64,000 nt of DNA, taken from NCBI GenBank assembly GCA_005808665.1, contig SYLG01000096.1, forward strand, positions 1-64,000. The letters are read 5' to 3'. Numbering within the stretch: the stretch's first letter is position 1; each line of letters begins with the position of its first letter. The notes beneath the pieces are model-generated. The model worked only from the letters and a program-made list of their open reading frames with translations. It searched no databases and was not told where the DNA came from. Positions 23,425-38,514 of the stretch are shown in pieces. The position numbers and the translations under genes were made by a program. The stretch is from Planctomycetia bacterium (GTDB taxonomy: Bacteria > Planctomycetota > Planctomycetia > Gemmatales > Gemmataceae).

Positions 23425-24306
23425 TTAAATCAACCCTGCCAAACCAAGGGCTTCCCTAAGTTTGGGGATTTTATCCGGCCCCACCAACGCAACTGGTGAC
23501 CTGCAGGGACCAATGGACCGCCCAAGCTCCCGAAGGGCGGATTTCACTCCCCCCGGGGCAGTCCCCAAAGTCAACGCCATCCGCAGAGGATGAAGCTTTG
23601 CCTGGGCCGCTTTGGACGCTTCGAGGTCTCCCGCCCGGAAGGACTCATAGATTTCAACAAGCAACCTCGGAGCAATATTGCAAGTCGCAGGAACCGCACC
23701 ACTGGCACCCATTTGCAAAGCGGAAAAAATCAAGGTATCTCTCCCTTGGAGGACTACAAAATCCTTGGGAACAGCCCTCAGGATTTCGATGGTGGTCTGC
23801 AAATCGCCACTGGAATCCTTGATCCCCACGATGTTCCGGATTTTTGCAAGCTTTGCACAAGTATCGGGATCAATCTTCAGTCCACCACAGGTCACCGGGT
23901 TACTGTAAAGCAACACCGGCAGGCTGGTGGATTCGGCAATCCGTTTGTAATGGTCATGGATTTCGTTCTGATTGGGCATGATGAAATAAGGAGTAATAAC
24001 CGAAACACCATCGACCCCTTCCATTTCCGCCATTTTGGTGAGGCGCTCGGCTTCCCGGGTGGTTTCCGCGCCTGTGCCTGCAAAAACAGGAACCCTCTTG
24101 CCCACTTTCTCCACGGCAAAGGCCATCACCTTCTGTTTTTCCATCTCGTCCAAAGCGTAAAATTCGCTGTTGGTTCCAAGGACAAAGATGCCATGGACAC
24201 CGGCTTCGATCTGGGTTTCGATAAACGACCCCAATCGTTCCAAATCAAGATCCTCGTTGTCCTTGAATGGTGTCGCAAGGGGTGGTATGATTCCATGAAA
24301 ACGCAT
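23425..24306 (-). CDS. DapA/NanA-family lyase or dehydratase
   Basis: About 293 residues from ATG at 24306 (CAGGA upstream). It shows the family hallmarks: PPLATPFKDNEDLD at the start, GTNSEFYALDEMEK in place of the usual GTTGE loop, the tyrosine in VLLYSNPV, and the Schiff-base lysine in IVGIKDSSGD. Members make dihydrodipicolinate or cleave N-acetylneuraminate, 2-keto-3-deoxy sugar acids and similar compounds. The absence of the canonical GTTGE loop argues against lysine-pathway DapA and for a catabolic aldolase or dehydratase. It ends a minus-strand cluster with a PhyH oxygenase, an MFS transporter, an acyltransferase and a DUF1080 protein. Substrate unknown. Confidence 0.78.
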   Translation of the reverse strand: MRFHGIIPPLATPFKDNEDLDLERLGSFIETQIEAGVHGIFVLGTNSEFYALDEMEKQKVMAFAVEKVGKRVPVFAGTGAETTREAERLTKMAEMEGVDGVSVITPYFIMPNQNEIHDHYKRIAESTSLPVLLYSNPVTCGGLKIDPDTCAKLAKIRNIVGIKDSSGDLQTTIEILRAVPKDFVVLQGRDTLIFSALQMGASGAVPATCNIAPRLLVEIYESFRAGDLEASKAAQAKLHPLRMALTLGTAPGGVKSALRELGRSIGPCRSPVALVGPDKIPKLREALGLAGLI

Positions 24307-24338
24307 GATGTTTCCTGTTTCAAAGGGGGGTAGCACAT

Positions 24339-25229
24339 CTAACCCACCGGAAAAAGCCTTGGAAAAAAACGGCCACCCAGTTCGGTTCCCTGGGGAATCG
24401 TGTCCACACCTTTCAGCAAGGGTTCATGGGTATCCGATTGGGTACCCCCCCGAAAGAAATTGAGGACGGTGGCCCGGCGAGAACGGTCGGTGGAATTGGC
24501 AAAACTGCCATGGATCAAAAGGGGGTGGTGAAAACTGATATGCCCTTTTTTCAGTTCAATGGCCTTTGGGTTTTCCATTGCCTGCATCTGCTCCGGGCTC
24601 AACACTTCCTTGATAGCCTCCATATTTCCCGCCAACCCGGTGATCGGCAACAGATCCCATTGGTGGCTACCGGGTATGTATTGCAGACAACCATTGTCCA
24701 CAGTGGCATCTTCAAGGGCGATCCAGCAGGTAAGGTGTCCCATCGGTTTGGTCCGGGTCCAATACGAATAATCCTGATGCCAAGCCACCACCCCCCCATG
24801 GCGGGCGGGTTTGCAAAACAGTTGGTCATGCCAAAAATGGACCGGACCATCGAGAAGTTGACTGGCTCGGACAGCAATCATTGGATTCCAAACGAGGTCA
24901 TGGAATGCCGGGGTGATCCGCCATGCCCCCAAGGCGTGGAAAAGGATACGGTTGGGATCCGTCGATTCATTGGTGTGGAATTCATGGAAAAGGGAATTTC
25001 CCGGATGATTTGGGTCCATGATTGGGGCCAATTCTTCCACCAGGCGATCCGCCTGAACATCGGTTAGCCCCCGCATTCCCGAAACGAAGCCAAACTGGTG
25101 AAAATGTTCGATCTGCTCCACCGAAAGACAAAAGGGATTATTGTCCGTAGCGGGCATTTTGTCAAAAAGATCAGTGATCGGGCCAGAAAAATGCGAAAGG
25201 TCCTCAACCGGTTTGGGTGGTTCGTTCAT
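24339..25229 (-). CDS. Phytanoyl-CoA dioxygenase (PhyH) family protein
   Basis: 296 residues. The double-stranded beta-helix of Fe(II)/2-oxoglutarate oxygenases is indicated by the iron-binding HxD motif in VVAWHQDYSYW, the distal histidine in HHPLLIHGSFANS and the following arginine that binds 2-oxoglutarate (RSRRATVLNFF). PhyH relatives hydroxylate fatty acyl chains, sugars, ectoine or secondary metabolites. The gene sits 32 bases upstream of the DapA-like gene on the same strand and 110 bases after the MFS gene, so it probably modifies the imported compound. The exact substrate cannot be inferred. Confidence 0.83.
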   Translation of the reverse strand: MNEPPKPVEDLSHFSGPITDLFDKMPATDNNPFCLSVEQIEHFHQFGFVSGMRGLTDVQADRLVEELAPIMDPNHPGNSLFHEFHTNESTDPNRILFHALGAWRITPAFHDLVWNPMIAVRASQLLDGPVHFWHDQLFCKPARHGGVVAWHQDYSYWTRTKPMGHLTCWIALEDATVDNGCLQYIPGSHQWDLLPITGLAGNMEAIKEVLSPEQMQAMENPKAIELKKGHISFHHPLLIHGSFANSTDRSRRATVLNFFRGGTQSDTHEPLLKGVDTIPQGTELGGRFFPRLFPVG

Positions 25230-25338
25230 CGTTTGAATCTCTCTGCACTACATGAGCCGGAAAGGTCAGTCTATCCCATCCGGAAAACGGGGCCATGACC
25301 ATGGAGACCATTGCCTTCGTTCGCCAAAAATCAAAAAC

Positions 25339-26649
25339 CTAATCCGTTGGGGAGGGTTCAAGGCTGTCCAATTCCTCCTCCCTTTTGTGTTCAGGAAGGC
25401 CAAATGCGGCGAGGATGGCGGGAATGAAGAGCAGGCTCGAATACATAAGCGCCGTCCGTTGATCCATGGAAATCACCCCAAAAACAATGGTACCCGTCGC
25501 CGCGGCGATCCGCCCAATGTTGTAGCAAAAGCCGGCCCCGGTCGTTCGCAAAAGGGTTGGGAAAAGGGGGGGCAAATACATGGTGAAAAGCCCGAATACA
25601 CCTTGGGCAATTCCCATCCAGGTCAAAAGCCAAAAAGTGGTTTTTGCATCGCGGGGAATCCCATAAGTGACAAACATGCCGATAATGTAAGCCACGAAAA
25701 GGAGGATGATGGCCTTTCGATAGCCCAGAAACCGGGCCAAAATGGCCGCCGTAAAATTGCCCACCACCGCGATGAGGTTGATCAGCATAAACGCCCAGGC
25801 GACTTGGCGATCTTTTTCTGCTTGGTCCAAGGCCAGGATTTCAGGGAGGGACCGATAGTGTTGAATCGCCCAAAACTGGAACGCCCAATGGGCGGTGAGG
25901 CTAAAGCCGCAAACCAGAATGGTCAGGATCGTAATGCGGGCAAGAGATCCCTTGAAAAGGTCGGCTATGCCTGGGGTTACCTCATTTTTCGAAGCCTTGG
26001 ACCAATCGTCGGTTTCGGGCACATGGCGACGAATCCACAAAGTTAACAAAGCTGGAAATAGCCCAACAAGAAACAAGGCCCGGTCGTTAAAGTTTCCAAT
26101 GGAGAACCCATAAAAGGTAACATCCACCGGCAAAAGGGTTCGCGCCAGCCCGGCAATCGTAGCCAGAAAGACCCCAAGGTTGACCCCGGATTGGAGGACC
26201 GCAGCCAACCAGGGCCGCCATTTCGAAGGCCAGGTTTCCGATAATAGCGAGGCCCCCACCGCCCATTCTCCTCCGATCCCAAGGGCCGCAAGGAAACGAA
26301 AAATCAAAAGGTGCCACCACTCCGTGGCAAAGAAGGATAAGCCGGTAAATAGGGTGTAAGTGAGGATGGTAAGAATCAGGGCTTTGCTTCGTCCAAGGAT
26401 ATCCCCCAGGCGGCCAAAAAAGCCACCCCCGATGGCCCAACCGAAAAGAAAAGCGGCTTGAATGTAGCCCATTTTGGAACGGGCATCGGGGCTACCTACT
26501 TCAGAATGGGCCAATGCCGCCACAAACCCTGCCGCTACCAGGGTGTAAAGGTGCATATCCAGGCCGTCGAACATCCAGCCTAGCCAGGCAGCGGCTCCTG
26601 ATTTCCATTGTTGCCCGGAAATGTCACGCAGTTTGGGTTGGGATGCCAT
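25339..26649 (-). CDS. Major facilitator superfamily transporter (acid/sugar-acid type)
   Basis: About 436 residues from ATG at 26649. An in-frame extension to 26814 lacks a membrane segment and is not adopted. Twelve hydrophobic helices are readable. The MFS signature loops GRLGDILGRSKALI (loop 2-3) and LGIGGEWAVGASLLSETWP (helix 5) are typical of the NanT/AAHS-type proton symporters for sialic acid, aromatic acids or other carboxylates. It sits between an HGSNAT-like acyltransferase and a PhyH oxygenase and presumably imports the substrate of this locus. A sialic or uronic acid is compatible with the DapA-family neighbour but not shown. Confidence 0.85.
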   Translation of the reverse strand: MASQPKLRDISGQQWKSGAAAWLGWMFDGLDMHLYTLVAAGFVAALAHSEVGSPDARSKMGYIQAAFLFGWAIGGGFFGRLGDILGRSKALILTILTYTLFTGLSFFATEWWHLLIFRFLAALGIGGEWAVGASLLSETWPSKWRPWLAAVLQSGVNLGVFLATIAGLARTLLPVDVTFYGFSIGNFNDRALFLVGLFPALLTLWIRRHVPETDDWSKASKNEVTPGIADLFKGSLARITILTILVCGFSLTAHWAFQFWAIQHYRSLPEILALDQAEKDRQVAWAFMLINLIAVVGNFTAAILARFLGYRKAIILLFVAYIIGMFVTYGIPRDAKTTFWLLTWMGIAQGVFGLFTMYLPPLFPTLLRTTGAGFCYNIGRIAAATGTIVFGVISMDQRTALMYSSLLFIPAILAAFGLPEHKREEELDSLEPSPTD

Positions 26650-26883
26650 TGGTTTTTGGTTCGACTTGGGTGGGATGGTGGGAAACCTTTCCTGTGGTTT
26701 AGCAATCCTTGGGTCAAAGTCCTGCTTAAAAGGTCGTTTCCCAAAGCAAATTGTGGCCTTGCACCGGCCAAAGGATCCGATCCCCCTGGTTGGGCCAAAA
26801 TCAAACAGTGTCATTTGGGAAAGGTGCTTGGGAAAGGAGGCATAGCCCTCGACAAAAGGAAACCTGCCCTTAACGGAAAGGAG

Positions 26884-28017
26884 TTAAGCCTTAAAGTAGA
26901 TCTTTTTCGTGTGAAGCCACCAGGCAAGGCCCCAAAAAACCAAAAGGACGGAAACAGAACTTGCTATCGACAAACCTACCGCCCCCCACGGGCTCAGTCC
27001 CATGAGCGGTTGGATCCAGGGATTCACCAAATCCCGAACCCGGGGCCTCAGGAATTCGCTTCCTGCATAAAGGGCAATCGAATTCATCCCGGCGATGGCA
27101 AAGGGCCACGCCCAACTCCGAAGTCCCAAATCCTCGATCAGGCCATGAAAAACGGCCATGGCAATCAGGGTCCATCCGGCTGCAAAGAGGCAAAACGAGG
27201 GTGTCCAGATCCGCTTGACCGAAGGAATGACCAACCCCAGGGACCACCCCGCACCAAGGAGCAAAAGACCCGCCGCAAGCAAAAGGAGGCTTTTTCCCTT
27301 AAGCGGGGACAGGCGTAAAAACTCCCCCGTTAGGGCGCCCAACAAAAGCGTTGCCGAAGAGGGGAGAAAATTGAGGACAGCATAGCTCCCCTTGGGAGCA
27401 ATCAGCAGGTTGGGATAGCCCATCCGGGTGGTCCAGGCATGGATACTTTGGTCGATCCAACTACCGAGATTTTTGTCCTGGGCCCAAGGATCAATTCCCT
27501 GGATCCAGCCAAAAAGATAAAGGCCTCCCGAATAAATCAGAAGGGAAAGGACCACCCCTAACGCCATGGTCCGCCAACCGCCCCGCATAAAAAGGAAGGC
27601 AACGATGTAAGCCAGGGCGATTTGTTGAAGCACCCGGATGAATTGAAGCTGGACAATCTGTTTTCCCAGTGAATCGAGGCAAACACCGACAAGAATCAGG
27701 AGTGTGGCCCGTTTGAGGACATGACAAAATTGCTGCCCGAACGAATCACCTTTTTCGGTGCGGATCGCAAAGGCAAAGGGCATCGAAACACCCACCAAAA
27801 ACATGAAGGAAGGCTGGATCAGATCCCAAAGCGTCAGGCCAACCCAATCCCGGTGGCTCACTTGGTCCGCCAGCCACCCCCATGAGGGGTCCTTGGCCAG
27901 GCTACCCAGGCCCAACCCTCCCGAAATCAGCAAAAGCATGGTAAATCCGCGGTACGCATCAATCGAAAGGATGCGGGTGGATTTGGTTTCTACCGATGCA
28001 TTTTCAGGCTGGGTCAT
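26884..28017 (-). CDS. HGSNAT-like membrane acyltransferase (heparan-alpha-glucosaminide N-acetyltransferase homologue)
   Basis: About 377 residues from ATG at 28017 with AAGGAG eight bases upstream. Roughly ten membrane helices. The N-terminal RILSIDAYRGFTMLLLISGG and the loop HRDWVGLTLWDLIQPSFMF, with its conserved histidine, match the catalytic domain of heparan-alpha-glucosaminide N-acetyltransferase and the bacterial DUF5009 proteins; RVLQQIALAY is another family marker. In lysosomes the homologue transfers acetyl from cytosolic acetyl-CoA to glucosamine across the membrane. In this bacterium it may acetylate an amino sugar during polysaccharide breakdown or envelope modification. It is between a DUF1080 gene and the MFS transporter. 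Confidence 0.83.
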   Translation of the reverse strand: MTQPENASVETKSTRILSIDAYRGFTMLLLISGGLGLGSLAKDPSWGWLADQVSHRDWVGLTLWDLIQPSFMFLVGVSMPFAFAIRTEKGDSFGQQFCHVLKRATLLILVGVCLDSLGKQIVQLQFIRVLQQIALAYIVAFLFMRGGWRTMALGVVLSLLIYSGGLYLFGWIQGIDPWAQDKNLGSWIDQSIHAWTTRMGYPNLLIAPKGSYAVLNFLPSSATLLLGALTGEFLRLSPLKGKSLLLLAAGLLLLGAGWSLGLVIPSVKRIWTPSFCLFAAGWTLIAMAVFHGLIEDLGLRSWAWPFAIAGMNSIALYAGSEFLRPRVRDLVNPWIQPLMGLSPWGAVGLSIASSVSVLLVFWGLAWWLHTKKIYFKA

Positions 28018-28074
28018 CCTCCACACTCCTTAAAGGGGTAGGGTCATTCAATATCCTGGTTTAACGCCCGGTCC

Positions 28075-28851
28075 TTAATCCAATGGGGTGAGAATGATTT
28101 TCCTGAAAAGCACTTCGGACCCTTCGGACTGGAATTGGAGTTTGCCTTTGGTAATGGTGAGGTCCGTGGCTTTGGTCATGGTGGTGCCGTTCAATTGGAC
28201 AACCATGGTGTCACCTTTCATGGTAACGACAAGGGTGTTCCATTCTTTGACCCCTTTTTCGATGTCGTTTTTCCCCCGGAAACCGATGACATTTTCCCAA
28301 CCGGGATCGCGACCAAACCAAAGTAACCGGGTTCCCGGAGGAAAGTCGCGGGCTGGTGCCCCCTCTTTCCAATAAGTACCCACCTTTTTTCCCCAAGGCC
28401 TATCCTCGGTTTGGGCTTTGAAGTTGTATTTTTTGTTGCCCCCGGTGATGGAAATGTCGGCGGTTCCCCCTTCGATCATGTTGCACTGGACCCCTTCCAG
28501 CCAACTTTTTCCTACCGCCCCCTCTTTGCCCGTGGCGTGCATGATGAGGCCGCAATCCCGGGCGTTTTTGTCCCGTCCTGGCCAAACCTTTCCTCCCCAG
28601 GTATATTCCACCTCCACTTTGTAGTTGGAAAATTCCGCCTTGGTGGAAAGCCCCCCCCAATCCTGGCCGGATATGCGAAGAAGCCCATCGGTTACGGTGA
28701 AGGTTCCATTCGGATCTTTATCCCCATGGTCCCTGAGGTAGGTATTCCATTGGGACATATCCTTGCCGTCGAACAACGCAATCGGTTCCCCGGCAGACAA
28801 AAGCGGCACACTCAAGGCGCCAAATACCAACAAACAGGCAACACGATGCAT
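28075..28851 (-). CDS. Secreted DUF1080 (3-keto-disaccharide hydrolase-like) protein
   Basis: About 258 residues from ATG at 28851, which gives a clean signal peptide (MHRVACLLVFGALSVPLLSA). The mature part is a jelly-roll of the DUF1080 family: PIALFDGKDMSQW at the start, CGLIMHATGKEGA in the middle, and EVLFRKIILTPLD at the end. Some members cleave 3-keto-glycosides and others only bind sugars. It is the first gene of the minus-strand cluster with the acyltransferase (gap 57 bases), transporter, oxygenase and DapA-like gene, consistent with handling a glycoside outside the cell. Confidence 0.85.
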   Translation of the reverse strand: MHRVACLLVFGALSVPLLSAGEPIALFDGKDMSQWNTYLRDHGDKDPNGTFTVTDGLLRISGQDWGGLSTKAEFSNYKVEVEYTWGGKVWPGRDKNARDCGLIMHATGKEGAVGKSWLEGVQCNMIEGGTADISITGGNKKYNFKAQTEDRPWGKKVGTYWKEGAPARDFPPGTRLLWFGRDPGWENVIGFRGKNDIEKGVKEWNTLVVTMKGDTMVVQLNGTTMTKATDLTITKGKLQFQSEGSEVLFRKIILTPLD

Positions 28852-29049
28852 GGGAAAGGGCCCCTGGAGGAAAAGGTGGGTCTGGAGAAAGGATACCGTC
28901 AAATCGTGGCCCATCAAGGTAACCCGCAAAAGGCAAAGGCAAATCCAGCTGAAAAAGGAGGCTCAATACCTGGGCCTACACCGCCTCCATAGGATAGTCC
29001 GGGTCAGGTGGATAAAGGACCCGCTTCGCTTTTTCGAGGTTACCCATTC

Positions 29050-30003
29050 ATGCCCAAGCCCTTGTTTCGTGGTGTTTGCGCCTCGTCCATCACTCCCTTT
29101 CATGCGGATGGGACCCTCCACCTTGAGAGGCTCAAACCCCATCTGGATTGGTTGGTTGGGGAAGGGGTTGATGCCATTTCTCCGCTTGGGAGTTCCGGGG
29201 AATTTCCCGCCATGGAGTGCGAGGAACGAAAACGGGTCCTTGCGGCGGCGATCGATGCCATTGCCGGCCGGGTTCCGGTCCTTGCGGGAACCCATGACTA
29301 TTCCACCAGGCGCACCATCGACCTTTCCCGTTTCGCCGAAGCGGCCGGGGCGGATGCCCTATTGATTGTTCCCCCCTATTACATGGCTCCCACCCCGGCT
29401 CAGGTCATGGACCATTACCGACGCATCGCCGAGGCGGTCCGCATTCCCATCCTTGTTTACCACAATATCCCGTTGACTTCGGTGGATCTGAAAACCGACC
29501 ACCTCTTGAAGCTTTTTGAGGAAAAGGCCATAGCCGGGGTCAAAATGTCCAACGCGGAACCCGATCGGATTTGCGAACTGTTGCAGGCAACCGGGGGGAG
29601 GTTTTTTGTCTACGCGGGGATTGATACGGTGGTTTTCGAGGGGTTGTGTCACGGGGCCCACGGATGGATTTCCGGAATACCCAGTACCGTTCCCGCCGCG
29701 GCAAAACGGTTGTACGAGGCGGTCTCCGTTCGGGGCGATTTGGCCCGTGCCCGGGAAATATGGTGCCAATTGGCCCCCCTGATGCGGCTGCAATTCCAGG
29801 CGTACCATTCCAAGGGAGAGGGTGCCCATTGGTTCAGCACCATGAAGGCGGCGCTCAACATGATTGGCCCCCCGGTGGGAGATCCCGAACCCCCCGTCCT
29901 TCCCTTGCCCCTGGCCCATCGGAAAACCCTGGCCACCCTGCTGGAAAACCTGGGCTACACCATTCACGAAAATCAGAAACCAGGAATCCCTAATACCCAT
30001 TGA
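29050..30003 (+). CDS. DapA/NanA-family lyase or dehydratase, second paralogue of this locus
   Basis: About 317 residues from ATG at 29050; an in-frame start at 29008 is possible. It has SSITPFHADGTLHLERL, the loop GSSGEFPAMECEE, the tyrosine in ILVYHNIPL and the Schiff-base lysine in AIAGVKMSNAEP. The YHNIP and KMSN variants differ from both other DapA-family genes in this window, so it should have its own substrate. It is divergent from the DUF1080-to-DapA cluster and separated by 198 bases. The base composition looks richer in G and C than that of its neighbours. Catabolism of a keto sugar acid is likely. Confidence 0.78.
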   Translation: MPKPLFRGVCASSITPFHADGTLHLERLKPHLDWLVGEGVDAISPLGSSGEFPAMECEERKRVLAAAIDAIAGRVPVLAGTHDYSTRRTIDLSRFAEAAGADALLIVPPYYMAPTPAQVMDHYRRIAEAVRIPILVYHNIPLTSVDLKTDHLLKLFEEKAIAGVKMSNAEPDRICELLQATGGRFFVYAGIDTVVFEGLCHGAHGWISGIPSTVPAAAKRLYEAVSVRGDLARAREIWCQLAPLMRLQFQAYHSKGEGAHWFSTMKAALNMIGPPVGDPEPPVLPLPLAHRKTLATLLENLGYTIHENQKPGIPNTH

Positions 30004-30131: not shown

Positions 30132-32384
30132 CTAAAGGTAGAGCCCAAGTTCAAAGACATCGTTGACTGTCCGCCACAGCCAGGTGGCGCAGGTTTCCGG
30201 CTTGAGGTAGATTTTGACTTGGGCCATGTTCCCCGGAACCAGGGACTTGTCTGCGTTTTCAATGTCCAGATAGACCAGAAAATGCTGGGTTTGGGGTACC
30301 AGTTGTTCGGGACGCCCGCCCGCTTTGATCGCTACCGGGCCGCCCCCACGGGTGGAAAGGGCCAAGGGGATTTCGCGCGCTTCCGCCGGGGGCAAACTGT
30401 GAATGTGGGCCCCCCATTCACGCATGCCCTGCCCATGGATCCGAAGGACCATTTCCGGGCTTTTTACCTGGGATGTTGTGCCCGTATAATCGAGCAACCG
30501 TTTGAACTCTTCCGTCGTCAGGGGCATACAGGCACTTAAGCTTCCCTCCTGATACACCACAAAGAGGGGACTGCGGGGGTCTTCCTGGAAGAGTTTGCCC
30601 ACATCGTCGATCTTGGGGGCATTGGAAATGATCCCGTCAATGGGCGACCGAAGGGTCAGTTTTTCGTTGGTGATCTTTTCCAGGGAGGCGATTTCCACCT
30701 TGCCCAGTTCGACCTGGCGGGTGGTTTTGGCGACGGTTTCGTCGAGTTTGTCCCGGTCATTGGGATCAACCGCCCGCCCCCTTTGCACCTGAAGGATGGC
30801 CAGATATTTTTCGCCCGCATCCAGTTCCGCCCGGGCCTGGGCCAGCTTGGCATCCACTTCGCGGTTAATGAATTGAGCCAACTCCTCCCCAGCCAAAACC
30901 TTTTGGCCGGGCCGAACCTTGAGTTGGGTCATGATCCCGGGATGGGTCATGAATAACCGCCTGGACGCCTCGGGCCTGGGCATGACAAGGGCCTGGCTCC
31001 TCAGGCGGCTGACCGGCATCGGAACGATGCAAAATATGGCAAGGGCAGTCATAACCAGGCAGGTCGTTATCATTACGCGATTGCTTTTCATGTCGGGTAC
31101 CCTCCCTCGACGGTAGATATTGCGTCCAAGATTGAAAATGGGCCAGCCTACCATGGACGCCATGGAAGCGATGGTAAGGGCCTGACTGATTACCTCAAGT
31201 TTGTAAGGTTTGAGGAAGTTGTACAAAAAGAAAAGGATGCTAAATGTGACCAACCACCGGTAGATGTAACTCACTATGGCAAAGGTGACAAAGAGGATGC
31301 GCCTTCCCAATTCCATGTAGGGTTCGGGGGGAACCTCGATTCCAAGCCCCTTGGACATAAACCAGTTGGTGATGAACTTGTTGGCCTTCTCCCGGAGGTT
31401 TGGGATCTCCATCCAGTCCGAAAGGACATAATAGCCATCGAAACGCATGAGCGGGTTGCCATTGAAAACCACGGTACTGACCGAGCAAACCACCATCAGC
31501 GACAGGGAAAGGTTGTGGATGAAGGGTTGACTGGGAGTATACCACCAGACAAAGGTGGCAATGGCGGCGATGACCAGCTCAACATAAATTCCGGCGGCGG
31601 AAATGATGATCCGCTGCCATTTGCTGGGCAGGGTCCAAGCATCGGTAACATTGCAATAAAGGGCCGGGGAAAAGCAGAGCAACAAAAAGCCCATTTCATG
31701 GACTTCACCCCCATAAAACCGGCAACTGAGGCCGTGGCCAAACTCGTGAATGACTTTGACCACCCCCAGGGAAAGCCAAAGGTAAGCGGCCGTTTTAAAG
31801 CTGAAAAACTCATAATAGTTGGGCAGCTTCGACACAAAAAGGTCAAAGTTGGTGGCCACCAAACCGGCGGCGGCACATACCAAAGCAACGCTGGCAAAAA
31901 GGAAGGCGCTGGTGAAAATCCACCAGGTGTACTGGATCATCCAGACCAGAATCTTGTCGGGATCGAGCACGGGGATTTTGATGTAAAGGATGTTGGTGAA
32001 AGTCTGGATCCATTCCTGGCGTTTGCGTTTTTGCCTCCGTTCGATGAGTTGTTTTCCTGCCCCGGGAGATTCATTCTGGGCCAAGCCCGCTTTCATGAGT
32101 TGTTGGGCAAATGCCTCCATGTCCTCAAGGCGCAAACGATCCGGTCGATAATGGGCTTCGTAGGCTTTTTGGGCATCGGCCAAGGTTCGCTTGCCGTCCA
32201 TGAATTGAAGGAGGAAATGTTCGTTTTCCTTGAGCCGGTAGTAGCGGAGGCTAACCGGATCCTTGATGACAAAATACGACCGACCCTCATAGCGATGCCG
32301 ATCGACAACAATGTCCGGGCGCAAGCGCACCCGAACCTGTTTTCTTCGTTCGACTTCCGAGGATAGTGGGGCGGTAGTGGCCAT
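30132..32384 (-). CDS. PqqD-like/M50 site-2 protease/HlyD-type polytopic membrane protein
   Basis: 750 residues. Residues ~15-105 resemble a PqqD/RRE-like winged helix (peptide-recognition type). The membrane region follows, with the zinc metalloprotease motif HEFGH at 213-217 and the second S2P motif NPLMRFDGYY at 310-319, and about seven or eight hydrophobic helices to ~455. The C-terminal third is a membrane-fusion (HlyD) module: a split lipoyl-like hairpin (~475-510 and ~575-610) around a coiled coil (~510-572), then a beta-barrel. A peptide-binding domain, an intramembrane protease and an export adaptor in one chain suggest cleavage and passage of a peptide or lipoprotein. It is the last of three adjacent minus-strand HlyD genes, 27 bases after the WD40-bearing one. 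Confidence 0.85.
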   Translation of the reverse strand: MATTAPLSSEVERRKQVRVRLRPDIVVDRHRYEGRSYFVIKDPVSLRYYRLKENEHFLLQFMDGKRTLADAQKAYEAHYRPDRLRLEDMEAFAQQLMKAGLAQNESPGAGKQLIERRQKRKRQEWIQTFTNILYIKIPVLDPDKILVWMIQYTWWIFTSAFLFASVALVCAAAGLVATNFDLFVSKLPNYYEFFSFKTAAYLWLSLGVVKVIHEFGHGLSCRFYGGEVHEMGFLLLCFSPALYCNVTDAWTLPSKWQRIIISAAGIYVELVIAAIATFVWWYTPSQPFIHNLSLSLMVVCSVSTVVFNGNPLMRFDGYYVLSDWMEIPNLREKANKFITNWFMSKGLGIEVPPEPYMELGRRILFVTFAIVSYIYRWLVTFSILFFLYNFLKPYKLEVISQALTIASMASMVGWPIFNLGRNIYRRGRVPDMKSNRVMITTCLVMTALAIFCIVPMPVSRLRSQALVMPRPEASRRLFMTHPGIMTQLKVRPGQKVLAGEELAQFINREVDAKLAQARAELDAGEKYLAILQVQRGRAVDPNDRDKLDETVAKTTRQVELGKVEIASLEKITNEKLTLRSPIDGIISNAPKIDDVGKLFQEDPRSPLFVVYQEGSLSACMPLTTEEFKRLLDYTGTTSQVKSPEMVLRIHGQGMREWGAHIHSLPPAEAREIPLALSTRGGGPVAIKAGGRPEQLVPQTQHFLVYLDIENADKSLVPGNMAQVKIYLKPETCATWLWRTVNDVFELGLYL

Positions 32385-32411
32385 GCTTTTTGGGTCCTGA
32401 GAAGGGGCTTA

Positions 32412-34655
32412 TCAGGGTTTTACGGTGCGAACCAGCACATTGTTCGGGGGAATGGAACCGTTTGCTGGGGTTTTAAGGCTGAGAGATCCTGATTTGCCCG
32501 GTTCAATGACCAAAGTAGATGTTCCACCGGGCACCAGCCAACCCGGATTGGGGGTGTCAAGCTCGGCCCAGATCCGCACCTGGCGATTGGTCGAGTCGAT
32601 GAAATTTTCGACCAATGAAATCGTGGCGGTAAGGTCTTTTTGATCGACCTCTTGTGTTTCCGGCATTTCCCAAAGAAGGACTTGGTGGTCGGTCGTACCT
32701 GTCACGACATACCTTGAATCGGGCATGAAGGCGGCACAAGTCGCCTGACCTGCGGTCCAAACCAACTGCCTCAACTCACTGGAACGACGGCCTCCCAAGG
32801 GGGCCCGCCACAACTCGACCCTGTTTTCGCCAGCGCAATTGGTAAGAACGGTTCGGCCATCCGGGGCAAAAAGGGCGGCACCTGTAAACGGAAGGGAACC
32901 GGTAATGTTAAGGATCGACCCGGCAAGGTGCCGATCTGCCAGGGACATGATTTTCAGTTCCTTGCCCTGATCGTAGATCAGGAATTTTCCATCCGGGCTC
33001 ACGCCTGGTTGGCTTACATCGCCCGAGCGACCGCCAAATTCCTCCCCGGCAACAAGTGCGACCTTGCCGCCTGCCGTGTTCCAAACATGAATGGTCTTGT
33101 CGCGCCCGGCCGAGACCAGCCTCTCCTTCTCGGCATAGTGGAGGTAGGTAAGAGCGGATTTGTGGGTCGATTTCTTCTTTTCCAGCAGGGTGAGTTTGCC
33201 ATCGGCGCCCACTTTCCAAAGGCAGATAGCGAGATCTTCGCCGCCGGTGGCAAGGATGTCTCCCTCCGGGGAAAACGCCACACAGGTAACCGAACGGGAA
33301 TGACAGTCAGGAGCATCGGGAAGCTGGACAATTTGGAGTTGGCCATCTGCGGCTTTTTTCAGTTCTGCCAAATGGACGGATCCGTTTTCCAACCCGGCGG
33401 CAATCAGGGACCGTTTGGCGTTGGGTGGCGTGGTTGCCAAAGCGCGGGCGATTAACCCGGAAACCTGGAAAAGTTGTTTGCCTTCGGTGGGATCCCAAAA
33501 GCGGATGGTCCGATCCTCGCTTCCTGAAACCACAATCGAGGTGCCATTGGACCCGCCGACTTTGCCCACCGCCACACAGGTGATTTCCTGGAGGTGGCCG
33601 CGAAGTTGCAGAATGGGAGTCACCGGCCGGGTGGGTTCCACAATGACTTTCATACCTTCCCGAATGCCCCTCGAGTTCTGGATTTCAATCAATCCCTCTA
33701 CCCGAAGTCGATCGGTGTCCTGGATTTGGAGGACCGGCTCGAGGTTTTTCACAGCCTCGCCGGTTTTCCGGTAGATTTCCTTGATTCGGCCGCCCACGGC
33801 GGGTCGGATTTCATGCATTCCAAGCACCGTTTGCGCTCCGGAAAGTTCCCGTTGGGCCTGGGTGATGGCAGCCTTCTTGGCCACCTCTTCCTGGCCGTAG
33901 CGGTCATAGGCCAACCGATTCATGCGAATGTCGTCCTGGGAAGCCCCACCCGCATTGCCCAACCGTTCGGATAATTTCCAACGGGTGAAGTATTCATTCT
34001 TGGTGGCTTCTGAGGATTTTCGTTCGGCTTCGTTAATGTCCAATTTTTGCTGCTTTACGGCAAGTTCGTCGATGGCAAGCACCGGGTTGACCAAGGCTAC
34101 AATTTGACCCGGTTTGACCAAATCACCCACCTGAAGTTCGCGAAAGGTTTTGAAATCGACAGCGATCTCCACCGCACCGGGGACAAGGTTGTCCGAATCC
34201 ATTCCGGGCCGGAAACGACGATACTTTTTCCCGGGCCGTTTGCCCAGGGTGAGAACTTCCTCAGGTGCCAGTTTATCGTTGGGACCAACCTCTATTGCCA
34301 AAGTGGCCACGGGAATGTTTTTGATCAACCTTGATCCCGGGACTTTTGCTTCGTCCCCCGGGGCGATTTCAGTTCCCACAACCAGCAGTTTGCCGTCCCG
34401 TTCCGAAGGGATTTCGCGTTTGGTCGTACTGACAAAACGGGCATCGCGAACGATGATCATCTGCTGGCCAAGGCTTTGGCGGGCTCCGGTGCTTGATGTG
34501 GTCGGTTGGACCACGCTTGGTACCGAACCATCCTCGGGAGCGGGACGCACGCCTGGATCGGAAACCACCGGCGAGGTAAAGGTCTTGGTAAGGGCGAAAA
34601 CGGATCCGAAAATGGCCACACCTGAAAGGACACAGAAACCAAGCCAGCGCATCAT
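32412..34655 (-). CDS. HlyD membrane-fusion protein with an inserted WD40 propeller
   Basis: About 747 residues from ATG at 34655 (AAGGAG upstream). One N-terminal membrane helix (LGFCVLSGVAIFGSVFAL) is followed by a periplasmic adaptor: lipoyl halves around a coiled coil (~150-300), then barrel strands. At about residue 345, after VIVEPTRPVTPILQL, a WD40 propeller begins, with readable blades such as GSEDRTIRFWDPTEGK, GGEDLAICLWKV and AGRDKTIHVWNT, and runs to ~665. The adaptor barrel then resumes (RQVRIWAELDTPNPGWLVPG) to the end. So the propeller interrupts an HlyD barrel rather than being appended to it. Its place on the periplasmic side suggests a docking platform. It lies between the other two genes of the module. 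Confidence 0.83.
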   Translation of the reverse strand: MMRWLGFCVLSGVAIFGSVFALTKTFTSPVVSDPGVRPAPEDGSVPSVVQPTTSSTGARQSLGQQMIIVRDARFVSTTKREIPSERDGKLLVVGTEIAPGDEAKVPGSRLIKNIPVATLAIEVGPNDKLAPEEVLTLGKRPGKKYRRFRPGMDSDNLVPGAVEIAVDFKTFRELQVGDLVKPGQIVALVNPVLAIDELAVKQQKLDINEAERKSSEATKNEYFTRWKLSERLGNAGGASQDDIRMNRLAYDRYGQEEVAKKAAITQAQRELSGAQTVLGMHEIRPAVGGRIKEIYRKTGEAVKNLEPVLQIQDTDRLRVEGLIEIQNSRGIREGMKVIVEPTRPVTPILQLRGHLQEITCVAVGKVGGSNGTSIVVSGSEDRTIRFWDPTEGKQLFQVSGLIARALATTPPNAKRSLIAAGLENGSVHLAELKKAADGQLQIVQLPDAPDCHSRSVTCVAFSPEGDILATGGEDLAICLWKVGADGKLTLLEKKKSTHKSALTYLHYAEKERLVSAGRDKTIHVWNTAGGKVALVAGEEFGGRSGDVSQPGVSPDGKFLIYDQGKELKIMSLADRHLAGSILNITGSLPFTGAALFAPDGRTVLTNCAGENRVELWRAPLGGRRSSELRQLVWTAGQATCAAFMPDSRYVVTGTTDHQVLLWEMPETQEVDQKDLTATISLVENFIDSTNRQVRIWAELDTPNPGWLVPGGTSTLVIEPGKSGSLSLKTPANGSIPPNNVLVRTVKP

Positions 34656-34740
34656 GATTGGAGACTCCTTGAACTGAATCTGAATTGAGGGGAGGATTTC
34701 CACGGGGGCCGGTTTCCCACCAAGCCTTGGGAATCGTTCC

Positions 34741-36894
34741 CTAGAAGAAGAAAACCACCTTTTCGTAGAAGAATTCCCAAACGCCGTAGAAAAGGGCATA
34801 ACCCATCGGTTTATTGCCACAGCGGATCTTGGCGCGGATTTCTGTTCCCGATACAAGGAGGTTGTCCACCCTAAGTTTGGCCAGTTCTTCCTTGGTAATG
34901 GTCACAAAGGCGGTCACCATGGGGTCCGGATTCTCCTGATCATTTCCCGCAGGCATGGCCTCGCCACCAATGCGGTCGCGCCGCAGTTTGCCGTGGAACT
35001 TGCGTGAACTATCTGCTCGCAAAATGAACTCCACATCGAGTACATCCGAGTTAAGATCGTGATAGGCCATTAAAATGTGGCCGATATTCTGTTGGGGAAT
35101 TTTGGTTTCGATCTCCCAAGGGCCGTCTTTTGCCCCCAAACGGAGCAATTCATCGGTCGGTTTGACCGCCCGTTCCGTCAGGTCTTCCTTGAAGTTGGTA
35201 GAAAGAATGGTCCATGACCTCTTTTCACCCAGTAGCGATGCCTCGGTGCTGGTAAAAAACGGCGCCCGAAGGTAGAAGAACCCCTCCCGCTGAGGAACCG
35301 GGTCGCCATTGGTTCGGGCGAGCAGGGCTTGCAATTCGCGTTCTTTGGCGTCGCGGACGATCCGGGTTTTCTCCGCCTCAGTATGGCTTTGCAGTTTGTC
35401 GGATTCGCTTCCCTTGGTAGCTCGTTGTTCAAACATGAGCACATCCGCCGAAGCGAGTTGGATCTCTTTGCGGAAACCGCGAATTTCCCGCTCCAGTTGG
35501 CCATCGTGCATGATTCCCAGATTGGTGTTTTCGGGAATGATGGCTCCAGGGCTCACCCGAATCTCCCGGATGATTCCTTCTGTCGATGGGAAAATTTTGC
35601 GACGGACTTCGGGTTGAAGCTGCCCGGTCGCCTCCATCTTGAGGGGATAAGGGACCAGAATCAGGACGGAAACCAATAACACAACTGCCCCCGAAATGGC
35701 GGCAAAAATAGCCTTCTTCTGGCCACCCAACCCTTCCTGGAATTTCACAATCGGCATCCAGACCCAGCGCATGGGAATCCGGCGATGTTCAATGGCGTTG
35801 TAAAGGGCACTGGTACAATGACGGCCCACCACTTCCAACCGGGCGATCAACTGCTGGGCGTCTGTGGGTGGATCAAAACATTCCATGATGATGGCAGATC
35901 GAATGGGCAGTTTGGACTTCTCCTCCCGTTCATCCTTGAGGGGCTGGATCACCAACAGTTTCGATCCACTTTCTGCCAGATAATTATCGAGGGCCGAAGA
36001 AACCTTGGGTGGCAAGGTATCATCCTGGATGCCGTTGAAAACCAGCTTTTCCCCCCAATTCAAAACCTCCTTGGCCAATACCTTCATCAACTGGACAAGG
36101 TTGGACCGCTTTTCCACCACATCCGCACCGGAGATAGCCTCCACAGCAATGTCCCCATGTTGGCGCAGAACCACGGAAACACGATCGCAGGCAACCAATC
36201 GTCTTCCTTCGTTTGCCACAACATAAGCAACATCAATGGGGGTGAGGGTTCCGTGGATTTGACGCGAGAAAACCTCAAGCTGGCTCCAGAGCTGCTGCTG
36301 GCCCGCCATGGTGGCCATGTTTTGGTTGCGCTGAAATCGGGCCGCAAGGTCCGACATGAGGGTGGCATATTGCAAGAAACCCGGAATGGCATTCGCCGCC
36401 CGGTTGGACCCCTGGCCTACCTCGATGATCCCTACCGTCATCCCGTTGACCACAATGGGTACCACGAGAAGGGTGAAGTCGGTGGGATTACCGGGTGCGG
36501 TTTTGCCAGGGTCCGTGGAACCAAGGCCCGTCTTTGGCATGAGGTGAAACGGTTTGGGTGGCGTCAGGGTGAGGGCATAACGGAGGAGTTCCTCGTGCAT
36601 CGCCCTCGATTCATCGGTTTTGTCAAAACCGGCATCTTTGAGGTTGATCTGGAATTGCAGTTGCAGGTTGCCTTGGGCCGTTTTTAGCCACACCGCACCA
36701 AGGGGTGCCGCCAAGGATTCCAGCAGGCGCCTTAACAGCTCCCCATAGAAAACCGATGGGGGCATTTCCGATTCACAGAGTCGCGAAACTTCCTCTAGCC
36801 TAAGGTTCAGCTTCCGCCGTTCCTGCTCCAGGGCATTGCGATCTAGGGCTTCTGGTCCGGCGCTCACGGCCACCTCACTTGACTTTGAAATCAT
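34741..36894 (-). CDS. GAF-GAF-TM-HlyD envelope protein
   Basis: 717 residues. The cytoplasmic N-terminal half starts with a coiled coil (~20-40) and two GAF-like domains (~45-190 and ~205-365; VVPIVVNGMTVGIIEVGQG is typical of the first). A membrane helix occupies ~394-416. The C-terminal half is an HlyD adaptor: GIIREIRVSPGAIIPENTNLG as the lipoyl half, a coiled coil around 465-505, and a barrel to the end, which closes with aromatic residues (FFYEKVVFFF). GAF domains sense small molecules, so this protein could couple a cytoplasmic signal to an export complex. First gene of the three-gene module; no clear Shine-Dalgarno is seen. Confidence 0.85.
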   Translation of the reverse strand: MISKSSEVAVSAGPEALDRNALEQERRKLNLRLEEVSRLCESEMPPSVFYGELLRRLLESLAAPLGAVWLKTAQGNLQLQFQINLKDAGFDKTDESRAMHEELLRYALTLTPPKPFHLMPKTGLGSTDPGKTAPGNPTDFTLLVVPIVVNGMTVGIIEVGQGSNRAANAIPGFLQYATLMSDLAARFQRNQNMATMAGQQQLWSQLEVFSRQIHGTLTPIDVAYVVANEGRRLVACDRVSVVLRQHGDIAVEAISGADVVEKRSNLVQLMKVLAKEVLNWGEKLVFNGIQDDTLPPKVSSALDNYLAESGSKLLVIQPLKDEREEKSKLPIRSAIIMECFDPPTDAQQLIARLEVVGRHCTSALYNAIEHRRIPMRWVWMPIVKFQEGLGGQKKAIFAAISGAVVLLVSVLILVPYPLKMEATGQLQPEVRRKIFPSTEGIIREIRVSPGAIIPENTNLGIMHDGQLEREIRGFRKEIQLASADVLMFEQRATKGSESDKLQSHTEAEKTRIVRDAKERELQALLARTNGDPVPQREGFFYLRAPFFTSTEASLLGEKRSWTILSTNFKEDLTERAVKPTDELLRLGAKDGPWEIETKIPQQNIGHILMAYHDLNSDVLDVEFILRADSSRKFHGKLRRDRIGGEAMPAGNDQENPDPMVTAFVTITKEELAKLRVDNLLVSGTEIRAKIRCGNKPMGYALFYGVWEFFYEKVVFFF

Positions 36895-37554: not shown

Positions 37555-38442
37555 TCAAGCCGCTTTACGCATCGGCTTGGTTTGACCCTTGAGGAGCTCA
37601 ATCAATCTTTCAAAATCGTCCCCATTTTGAAAATCAAGGCACAAGGTGCCTGCCTCGGCACCCCTTAGCTTGATCTCCACCTTGACCGAAAGGGCCCCAC
37701 GAAGTTCCTCCTCGAGGGACCTTAAATGAGCCGTTTTATCGGTTTTGGGCAGGGCCAAGGGTTTTTGCCCTGGGGAAACCTCGGCAGAAACTTTGCTACG
37801 AACCTGTTCCTCAAGGGCATGGACGGAAAGCCCCCGTGCGATGGTTTCATTGCACAACAAAAGCTGCCTGGTTGGTTCAACCCCTTTCAGGGCTTTGGCA
37901 TGGCCCGTGGTGATCTGCCCGGTTTGCAAAGCAGCCCGAATTTCCTGGGGCAAATCCATCAAGGCCACCAGGTTGGTGACCGTCGAACGAGCCAACCCGA
38001 GCCGTTTTGCCAACAGTTCATGGGTCAGGCCGAACCGTTTGAGATGGTCCTGGAACCCTTGGGCCTTCTCAATGGGATTGAGGTCTGCCCGATGGATGTT
38101 TTCCGCAAGAGCCGCCTCAAGCACCTGTTGGTCGTTCATTTCCACGATTCGAATGGGAATTTCACCCAATCCGACCGCCAAGGCAGCCCGATAGCGCCGT
38201 TCTCCGGCGATGATCTGGTATTTGCCATTTGCCTCCCGAACCACAATCGGTTGGAGAACCCCCTGTTCGCAAATACTGGATGCAAGCGATGCCAACTCGT
38301 CCTCATCGAAATGGCGACGGGGTTGCAACGGGTTTACCACAATGGAAGCTAGGGAAGCCGTGGCAAAGGAGTGGGAGGTGGCATCGTCAGCCCCCGGTAG
38401 TAATGCATCCAAACCCCTACCCAGTCTCATTTTGCGTTCCAT
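37555..38442 (-). CDS. parB: ParB/Spo0J chromosome-partitioning protein
   Basis: About 295 residues from ATG at 38442 (AAAGG eight bases upstream); ATG at 38430 is possible. The N-terminus MRLGRGLDALLPG is characteristic of ParB. The CTP-binding motif GERRYRAALA and the ENIHRADLNPIEKA segment are intact, the DNA-binding helix-turn-helix lies at LAKRLGLARSTVTNLVALMD, and a C-terminal dimer domain follows. ParB binds parS sites and spreads along DNA as a CTP switch to organise origins. parA is not adjacent within this window; the gene instead faces glgB across a repeat-rich spacer. Confidence 0.92.
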   Translation of the reverse strand: MERKMRLGRGLDALLPGADDATSHSFATASLASIVVNPLQPRRHFDEDELASLASSICEQGVLQPIVVREANGKYQIIAGERRYRAALAVGLGEIPIRIVEMNDQQVLEAALAENIHRADLNPIEKAQGFQDHLKRFGLTHELLAKRLGLARSTVTNLVALMDLPQEIRAALQTGQITTGHAKALKGVEPTRQLLLCNETIARGLSVHALEEQVRSKVSAEVSPGQKPLALPKTDKTAHLRSLEEELRGALSVKVEIKLRGAEAGTLCLDFQNGDDFERLIELLKGQTKPMRKAA

Positions 38443-38514
38443 GATCAATACCTTTGTGTCCAAAGCCCAATGCAAAGTTTGTGAATATTTTGGGGCTTGT
38501 ACCCATTGTGAGGT

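Follow-up and report, generated by a model that had tools for sequence, protein, structure and literature searches.

A GAF, WD40 and site-2-protease adaptor operon of Gemmataceae as the probable membrane part of a SecA2-linked exporter of large tagged surface proteins

Kamneva, Poudel and Ward (2015; PMC4452313) reported loci from Planctomycetes, Verrucomicrobia and Proteobacteria in which genes for a secondary SecA_DEAD protein, a Peptidase_M50-HlyD protein, a GAF-HlyD protein and an HlyD/biotin_lipoyl protein occur together, sometimes with an OEP (TolC) gene, and from which an ABC transporter is absent. These authors suggested the SecA paralogue as the source of energy, noted that parts of the module are sometimes unlinked and left its biological role unassigned. 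Our literature search on the module found no study later than this one, and the terms efflux, SecA, TolC and M50 are absent from the main text of the T. immobilis proteome paper. A related protease architecture is known from the daptides, where RRE domains are fused to an intramembrane site-2 protease, leader removal is RRE-dependent and the precursors that co-occur with the RRE-protease carry an N-terminal ELExMEAP motif (PMC10036551). The N-terminal tag LEPR-XLL is hardly mentioned in the literature searched.

The DNA analysed here is a window of 64,000 nucleotides on contig C75 of a 4.48-Mb Gemmataceae genome. It contains three adjacent genes that encode HlyD-type adaptors joined to other domains, with the following features:

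34741..36894, minus strand: gene 1, GAF-GAF-TM-HlyD adaptor, 717 aa (Pfam and AF2 model)
about 36307-36825, minus strand: GAF1 of gene 1
about 35776-36303, minus strand: GAF2 of gene 1
35656-35721, minus strand: TM helix of gene 1, residues 392-413 in the model
34753-35652, minus strand: MacA-like adaptor of gene 1, residues 391-706 in the model
32412..34655, minus strand: gene 2, periplasmic adaptor of HlyD/RND type, 747 aa; one membrane helix at the N-terminus, WD40 propeller inserted
33819..34082, minus strand: adaptor alpha-hairpin of gene 2, residues 192-279, helices 192-234 and 240-279 in the model
32655..33629, minus strand: WD40 propeller of gene 2, residues 343-667, within the adaptor beta-barrel
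30132..32384, minus strand: gene 3, PqqD/RRE-like domain, M50 site-2 protease and HlyD adaptor, 750 aa
32082..32270, minus strand: PqqD/RRE-like domain of gene 3 (PF05402), residues 39-101, candidate tag reader
31734..31748, minus strand: HEFGH zinc motif of gene 3, residues 213-217
31434..31457, minus strand: NPLMRFDG second catalytic motif of gene 3, residues 310-317

These are the positions at which an initial annotation of the sequence had placed the three open reading frames. Although the mechanical reading frame of gene 2 begins at 34856, an AAGGAG Shine-Dalgarno sequence precedes the ATGATG at 34655, and the gene was therefore read as 34655-32412. The genes look like one operon, since only 85 nt separate genes 1 and 2 and only 27 nt separate genes 2 and 3. 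Rfam gave no match in the window, and a scan for promoters and terminators gave no signals above those of shuffled sequences. Just upstream of the operon lies a ParB-family gene (37555-38475). On its other side, the region 23425-30003 may be a sialate-type sugar acid cluster, with a sialate:H+ symporter-like MFS gene, a NagX-like acetyltransferase, a 3-keto-disaccharide hydrolase and a DHDPS/NanA-family gene as candidate members, and with a second DHDPS-like stretch near 23490-24300.

For gene 1 the Pfam match to GAF is borderline (E=2e-4, with matches in 12/17 homologues), a weak call that is resolved by the AlphaFold (AF2) model (pLDDT 84), because this gives a tandem GAF at residues 15-388. 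Compared with known structures, the model resembles the tandem GAF of PDE5/PDE6 with Z values of 15-20 and MacA with a Z of 14.8. By this model, the product of gene 1 consists of a GAF pair, then a membrane helix and finally an adaptor of the MacA type, with the GAF domains predicted to be cytoplasmic.

Gene 2 is recognised as an adaptor by HlyD_3 (E=9e-8) and CzcB/RND_mfp (E about 1e-12) and contains a clear WD40 domain (Pfam E=2e-27), which its AF2 model (pLDDT 81.6) folds into a propeller (VIA, Z about 35). The initial annotation had spoken of N-terminal or inserted modules; the WD40 domain is of the inserted kind, as the propeller splits the beta-barrel of the adaptor. The alpha-hairpin, which in known adaptors is the part that contacts the TolC-type channel, lies ahead of the propeller in the protein. 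At loci from other families, the gene in the middle mostly encodes a plain adaptor of about 300-400 residues, and three homologues without a propeller (L140, L142 and L144) show an alignment gap exactly at the propeller site. Outside Gemmataceae, the propeller was found in only one of the named loci examined, that of Planctomycetes bacterium Pan216 (L145). The insertion is thus a lineage-restricted addition, as homologues outside the family are mostly plain adaptors gapped at this site, and by these sequence comparisons it is a new feature that defines a lineage-specific variant of the known module.

The catalytic part of gene 3 matches the M50 family (PF02163, E=7.5e-8) with its HExxH and second Asp motifs intact: H213, E214, H217, N310 and D316 are invariant among 15 phylum-wide homologues, and P311 and G317 are nearly so. 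The match to PqqD is sub-threshold in gene 3 itself (PF05402, E=9e-4) and reaches E<0.01 in 9/15 homologues. The presence of an M50 protease with HEFGH and a PqqD-like domain, as initially annotated, is thereby borne out. The closest named relative of the protease is the daptide protein MpaP, aligned over the RRE-like and M50 parts. The corresponding model (NF041824, daptide_HExxH) covers residues 24-382 with E=4e-54 and also matches all 15 homologues, with a score for gene 3 (184 bits) that is under the 300-bit equivalog cut-off; a further match to YydH/LiaK (E=1e-12) reaches 48 bits against a cut-off of 225. Separately, we observed that the M50 proteins of L046, G037, G038, G039 and G075, from two genera, are about 880-920 aa long, and that their extra stretch breaks the adaptor part at about residue 631-644, numbered as in gene 3, which recalls the WD40 insertion of gene 2.

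The three genes were expected to form a conserved unit in neighbouring planctomycete genomes, and they do. The order GAF, WD40-adaptor, M50 is kept in 19/20 Gemmataceae loci, the exception (L039) having its GAF gene elsewhere in the genome, and the M50 gene was found in 63/66 good Gemmataceae genomes. Its absence from G057 and G005 is likely an assembly gap, since the GAF gene there lies near a contig end; G040, G056 and G058 gave neither an M50 nor a GAF match. The components of the 2015 module are all found here, namely an M50-HlyD protein, a GAF-HlyD/biotin_lipoyl protein, a further HlyD protein (gene 2) and a secondary SecA_DEAD protein in the genome, and the three genes belong to this SecA_DEAD, type-I-related module. 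The view that no system of such composition had been described is therefore mistaken, because such loci were published in 2015. The secondary SecA of the source genome (SecA2; 698 aa, G000:C168:6220-8313) exists besides a long canonical SecA, has intact Walker, DEAD and RQGDPG motifs, and is matched in 66/66 good Gemmataceae genomes. The operon cannot be called self-contained, as the initial annotation had it, because SecA2 is encoded on another contig, among neighbours that look like housekeeping genes; several OEP-family (TolC-type) proteins are also encoded in the source genome, none of them linked to the operon. The same separation holds across Gemmataceae, where SecA2, TolC and tagged genes are all unlinked to the operon and no SecA_DEAD gene was found at it in 20 loci of up to 20 kb; this is a point against the export reading given below. 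SecA2 adjoins the GAF/HlyD/M50 genes in many other planctomycete loci, and also in Proteobacteria.

Giant genes beside related loci start with LEPR-XLL-like motifs, and in 294 genomes of the phylum we compared the occurrence of this tag with that of the M50 gene. Matches to LEPR-XLL over the cut-off were present in 34/70 M50-positive and 5/224 M50-negative genomes (Fisher p=8e-20, about 1e-19), counts that are not phylogenetically independent; at the family level the tag was present in 19/31 M50-positive and 2 of about 62 M50-negative families. Tallied among the genomes listed, the association had a p of about 1e-16 in genomes under 5 Mb and was weaker in larger ones (p about 0.009). Eight LEPR genes were observed no further than 10 kb from an M50 gene, where chance predicts 0.96. 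These sequence associations suggest that LEPR-XLL proteins are a new candidate substrate of the module. Against an export function counts the fact that 36/70 M50-positive genomes have no LEPR-XLL match over the cut-off, for which variant tags are one possible reason.

In most of the proteobacterial plasmid loci inspected, the M50 gene shares its operon with further adaptor genes and usually TolC, next to a gene of large or giant size (up to about 16,000 aa). SecA is part of four plasmid operons, in two of which it is annotated as a prepilin peptidase and identified as SecA by Pfam:

L260:18059-20083: "prepilin peptidase" that is SecA (Pfam SecA_DEAD, P-loop_SecA, SecA_PP_bind)
L265:17204-19120: "prepilin peptidase" that is SecA (Pfam SecA_DEAD, P-loop_SecA, SecA_PP_bind)

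Several proteobacterial operons have no local SecA, which also counts against the export reading. LEPR was present within about 60 aa of the N-terminus in 6/10 N-termini read at plasmid loci and missing in the other four, some of which are perhaps fragments or carry a wrong annotated start; that giant neighbours can lack the tag at their annotated start counts against export too. On a Variovorax paradoxus plasmid (L274), a 48.7-kb gene (about 16,000 aa, tandem-95 repeats) lies immediately ahead of TolC, adaptor genes and the gene for the M50 homologue. In two Alphaproteobacteria a small DUF3467 gene separates the giant gene from the adaptor gene (L258:12651-12947 and L265:12726-13046).

The best LEPR-XLL (NF012209) match in the source genome scored 13.5 bits, below the curated cut-off of 17, which is a further point against export; no tag proteins were found inside the window. 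A related motif is present in the family: the DNA pattern for LEDRxxPA gave 976 matches in 95 Gemmataceae genomes, compared with 133 for the reversed control. The motif lay no more than 130 residues from the start of the reading frame in 27/31 readable matches, and a Glu at -2, outside the search pattern, recurs in 22/27 of these start-near matches. N-terminal to the motif the proteins are basic (180 K/R, 68 D/E), and most have no strongly hydrophobic segment there; the tagged proteins may still carry Sec signals. Counted by pattern search, the source genome has four LEDRxxPA proteins, together with a 6,323-aa frame that has FESLENRVVLS at about residue 50. The LExLEDRxxPA of Gemmataceae looks like a lineage variant of LEPR-XLL. 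Two genomes (G056 and G058, incomplete MAGs) have LEDR pattern matches without detectable GAF or M50 genes, a further observation that counts against export.

On evidence that is all comparative, we consider it likely that the module as a whole is a SecA2/M50/adaptor/TolC exporter of large to giant tagged surface proteins, and the three genes probably encode the inner-membrane and periplasmic parts of an export machine that uses a second SecA and not an ABC pump. What such a machine does step by step, which pore the chain passes and what the GAF and WD40 domains contribute are matters of inference. Its substrates would be large to giant surface proteins tagged with LEPR-XLL in most lineages and with [LVM]ExLEDRx[VT]PA in Gemmataceae. 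On the cytoplasmic side, the PqqD/RRE-like domain of the M50 protein would bind the tag, SecA2 would hydrolyse ATP and feed the chain into the complex, and the M50 domain would cut off the tag within the membrane. Together, the GAF-, WD40- and M50-linked adaptors would bridge the periplasm as a conduit to a TolC-family channel that is encoded at another site. The GAF pair would gate the complex in response to a ligand in the cytoplasm, and the WD40 propeller, on the periplasmic side, would offer an added docking surface. The assignment of the PqqD-like domain as tag reader is suggested by analogy, because the tags share an LEx[LM]E core with daptide precursors, a short resemblance; the tag might instead be read by SecA2. 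We regard as evenly poised the fuller proposal that LEPR-XLL/LExLEDRxxPA is the export tag of a SecA2-driven, ABC-less TolC-type system, that the RRE-fused protease reads and removes it through an LEx[LM]E recognition common with daptides, and that Gemmataceae added the WD40 propeller.

The initial annotation had favoured a self-contained envelope complex of sensing and regulated proteolysis. In this rival reading the GAF domains would sense a cytoplasmic ligand, the WD40 adaptor would catch a peptide or lipoprotein for cleavage by the M50 protease, and nothing would be secreted. That cytoplasmic sensors and a peptide-binding protease work together in an envelope complex is plausible, and intact M50 motifs, two GAF domains, a protein-binding propeller and a SecA2 gene unlinked in Gemmataceae are all in keeping with that view. 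Nevertheless, in other lineages the SecA2 and TolC genes lie next to the operon and giant tagged proteins are encoded beside it, and the presence of three adaptor modules is suggestive of a conduit; the evidence thus favours secretion of large tagged proteins over sensing and lipoprotein cleavage, and we regard the latter as unlikely.

By analogy to daptides and epipeptides, whose site-2 proteases are fused to an RRE, the operon could instead export and mature a modified (RiPP-like) peptide, as the MpaP and YydH/LiaK matches and the PqqD/RRE-like domain would allow. This is improbable given that both matches score below their equivalog cut-offs, that no RiPP modification enzyme was found among the neighbouring window ORFs scanned and that the associated tagged proteins run from hundreds to thousands of residues. 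Still less probable is that these are standard adaptors serving an ABC, RND or MFS efflux pump encoded elsewhere. Their sequences are similar to RND/MacA-type adaptors, and three distant loci (L102, L103 and L124) have a gene resembling an RND pump nearby, but the module travels with SecA2, its adaptors are fused to GAF and M50 domains, and no ABC-like ORF was found near the operon in 60 loci of up to 20 kb, in agreement with the initial observation that an ABC partner is lacking nearby.

If the export reading is true, an orphan secretion-like locus described in 2015 and an orphan N-terminal tag of some very large bacterial proteins would explain each other, and planctomycetes and many Proteobacteria would have a route to giant surface proteins without an ABC exporter. 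The RRE domain, known from peptide natural products, would be tied to protein secretion. It is unusual for a periplasmic adaptor to hold a WD40 propeller, and the envelope of this phylum is itself unusual.

Compared with the locus of Kamneva and coworkers, SecA2 is unlinked in Gemmataceae and the third adaptor carries an inserted WD40 propeller. Like daptide MpaP, gene 3 has an RRE-like domain N-terminal to an M50 protease and is associated with an LEx[LM]E-type N-terminal precursor motif; unlike MpaP, it ends in an adaptor, its associated tagged proteins are large and its score is under the equivalog cut-off. The LEPR-XLL proteins (NF012209) are a sequence family of large proteins with an N-terminal LEPRxLL tag, and their link to the module is proposed here. 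The adaptor fold, with its lipoyl domain, alpha-hairpin and beta-barrel, is shared with type I secretion (HlyB/HlyD/TolC) and with MacAB/RND pumps; in contrast to these, no ABC or RND partner is nearby, a SecA paralogue is the likely motor and the adaptors are fused to GAF, WD40 and M50 domains. In the accessory Sec (SecA2) systems of Gram-positive bacteria a second SecA is likewise dedicated to large surface proteins, whereas the route that we infer here would lead through adaptors and a TolC-type channel.
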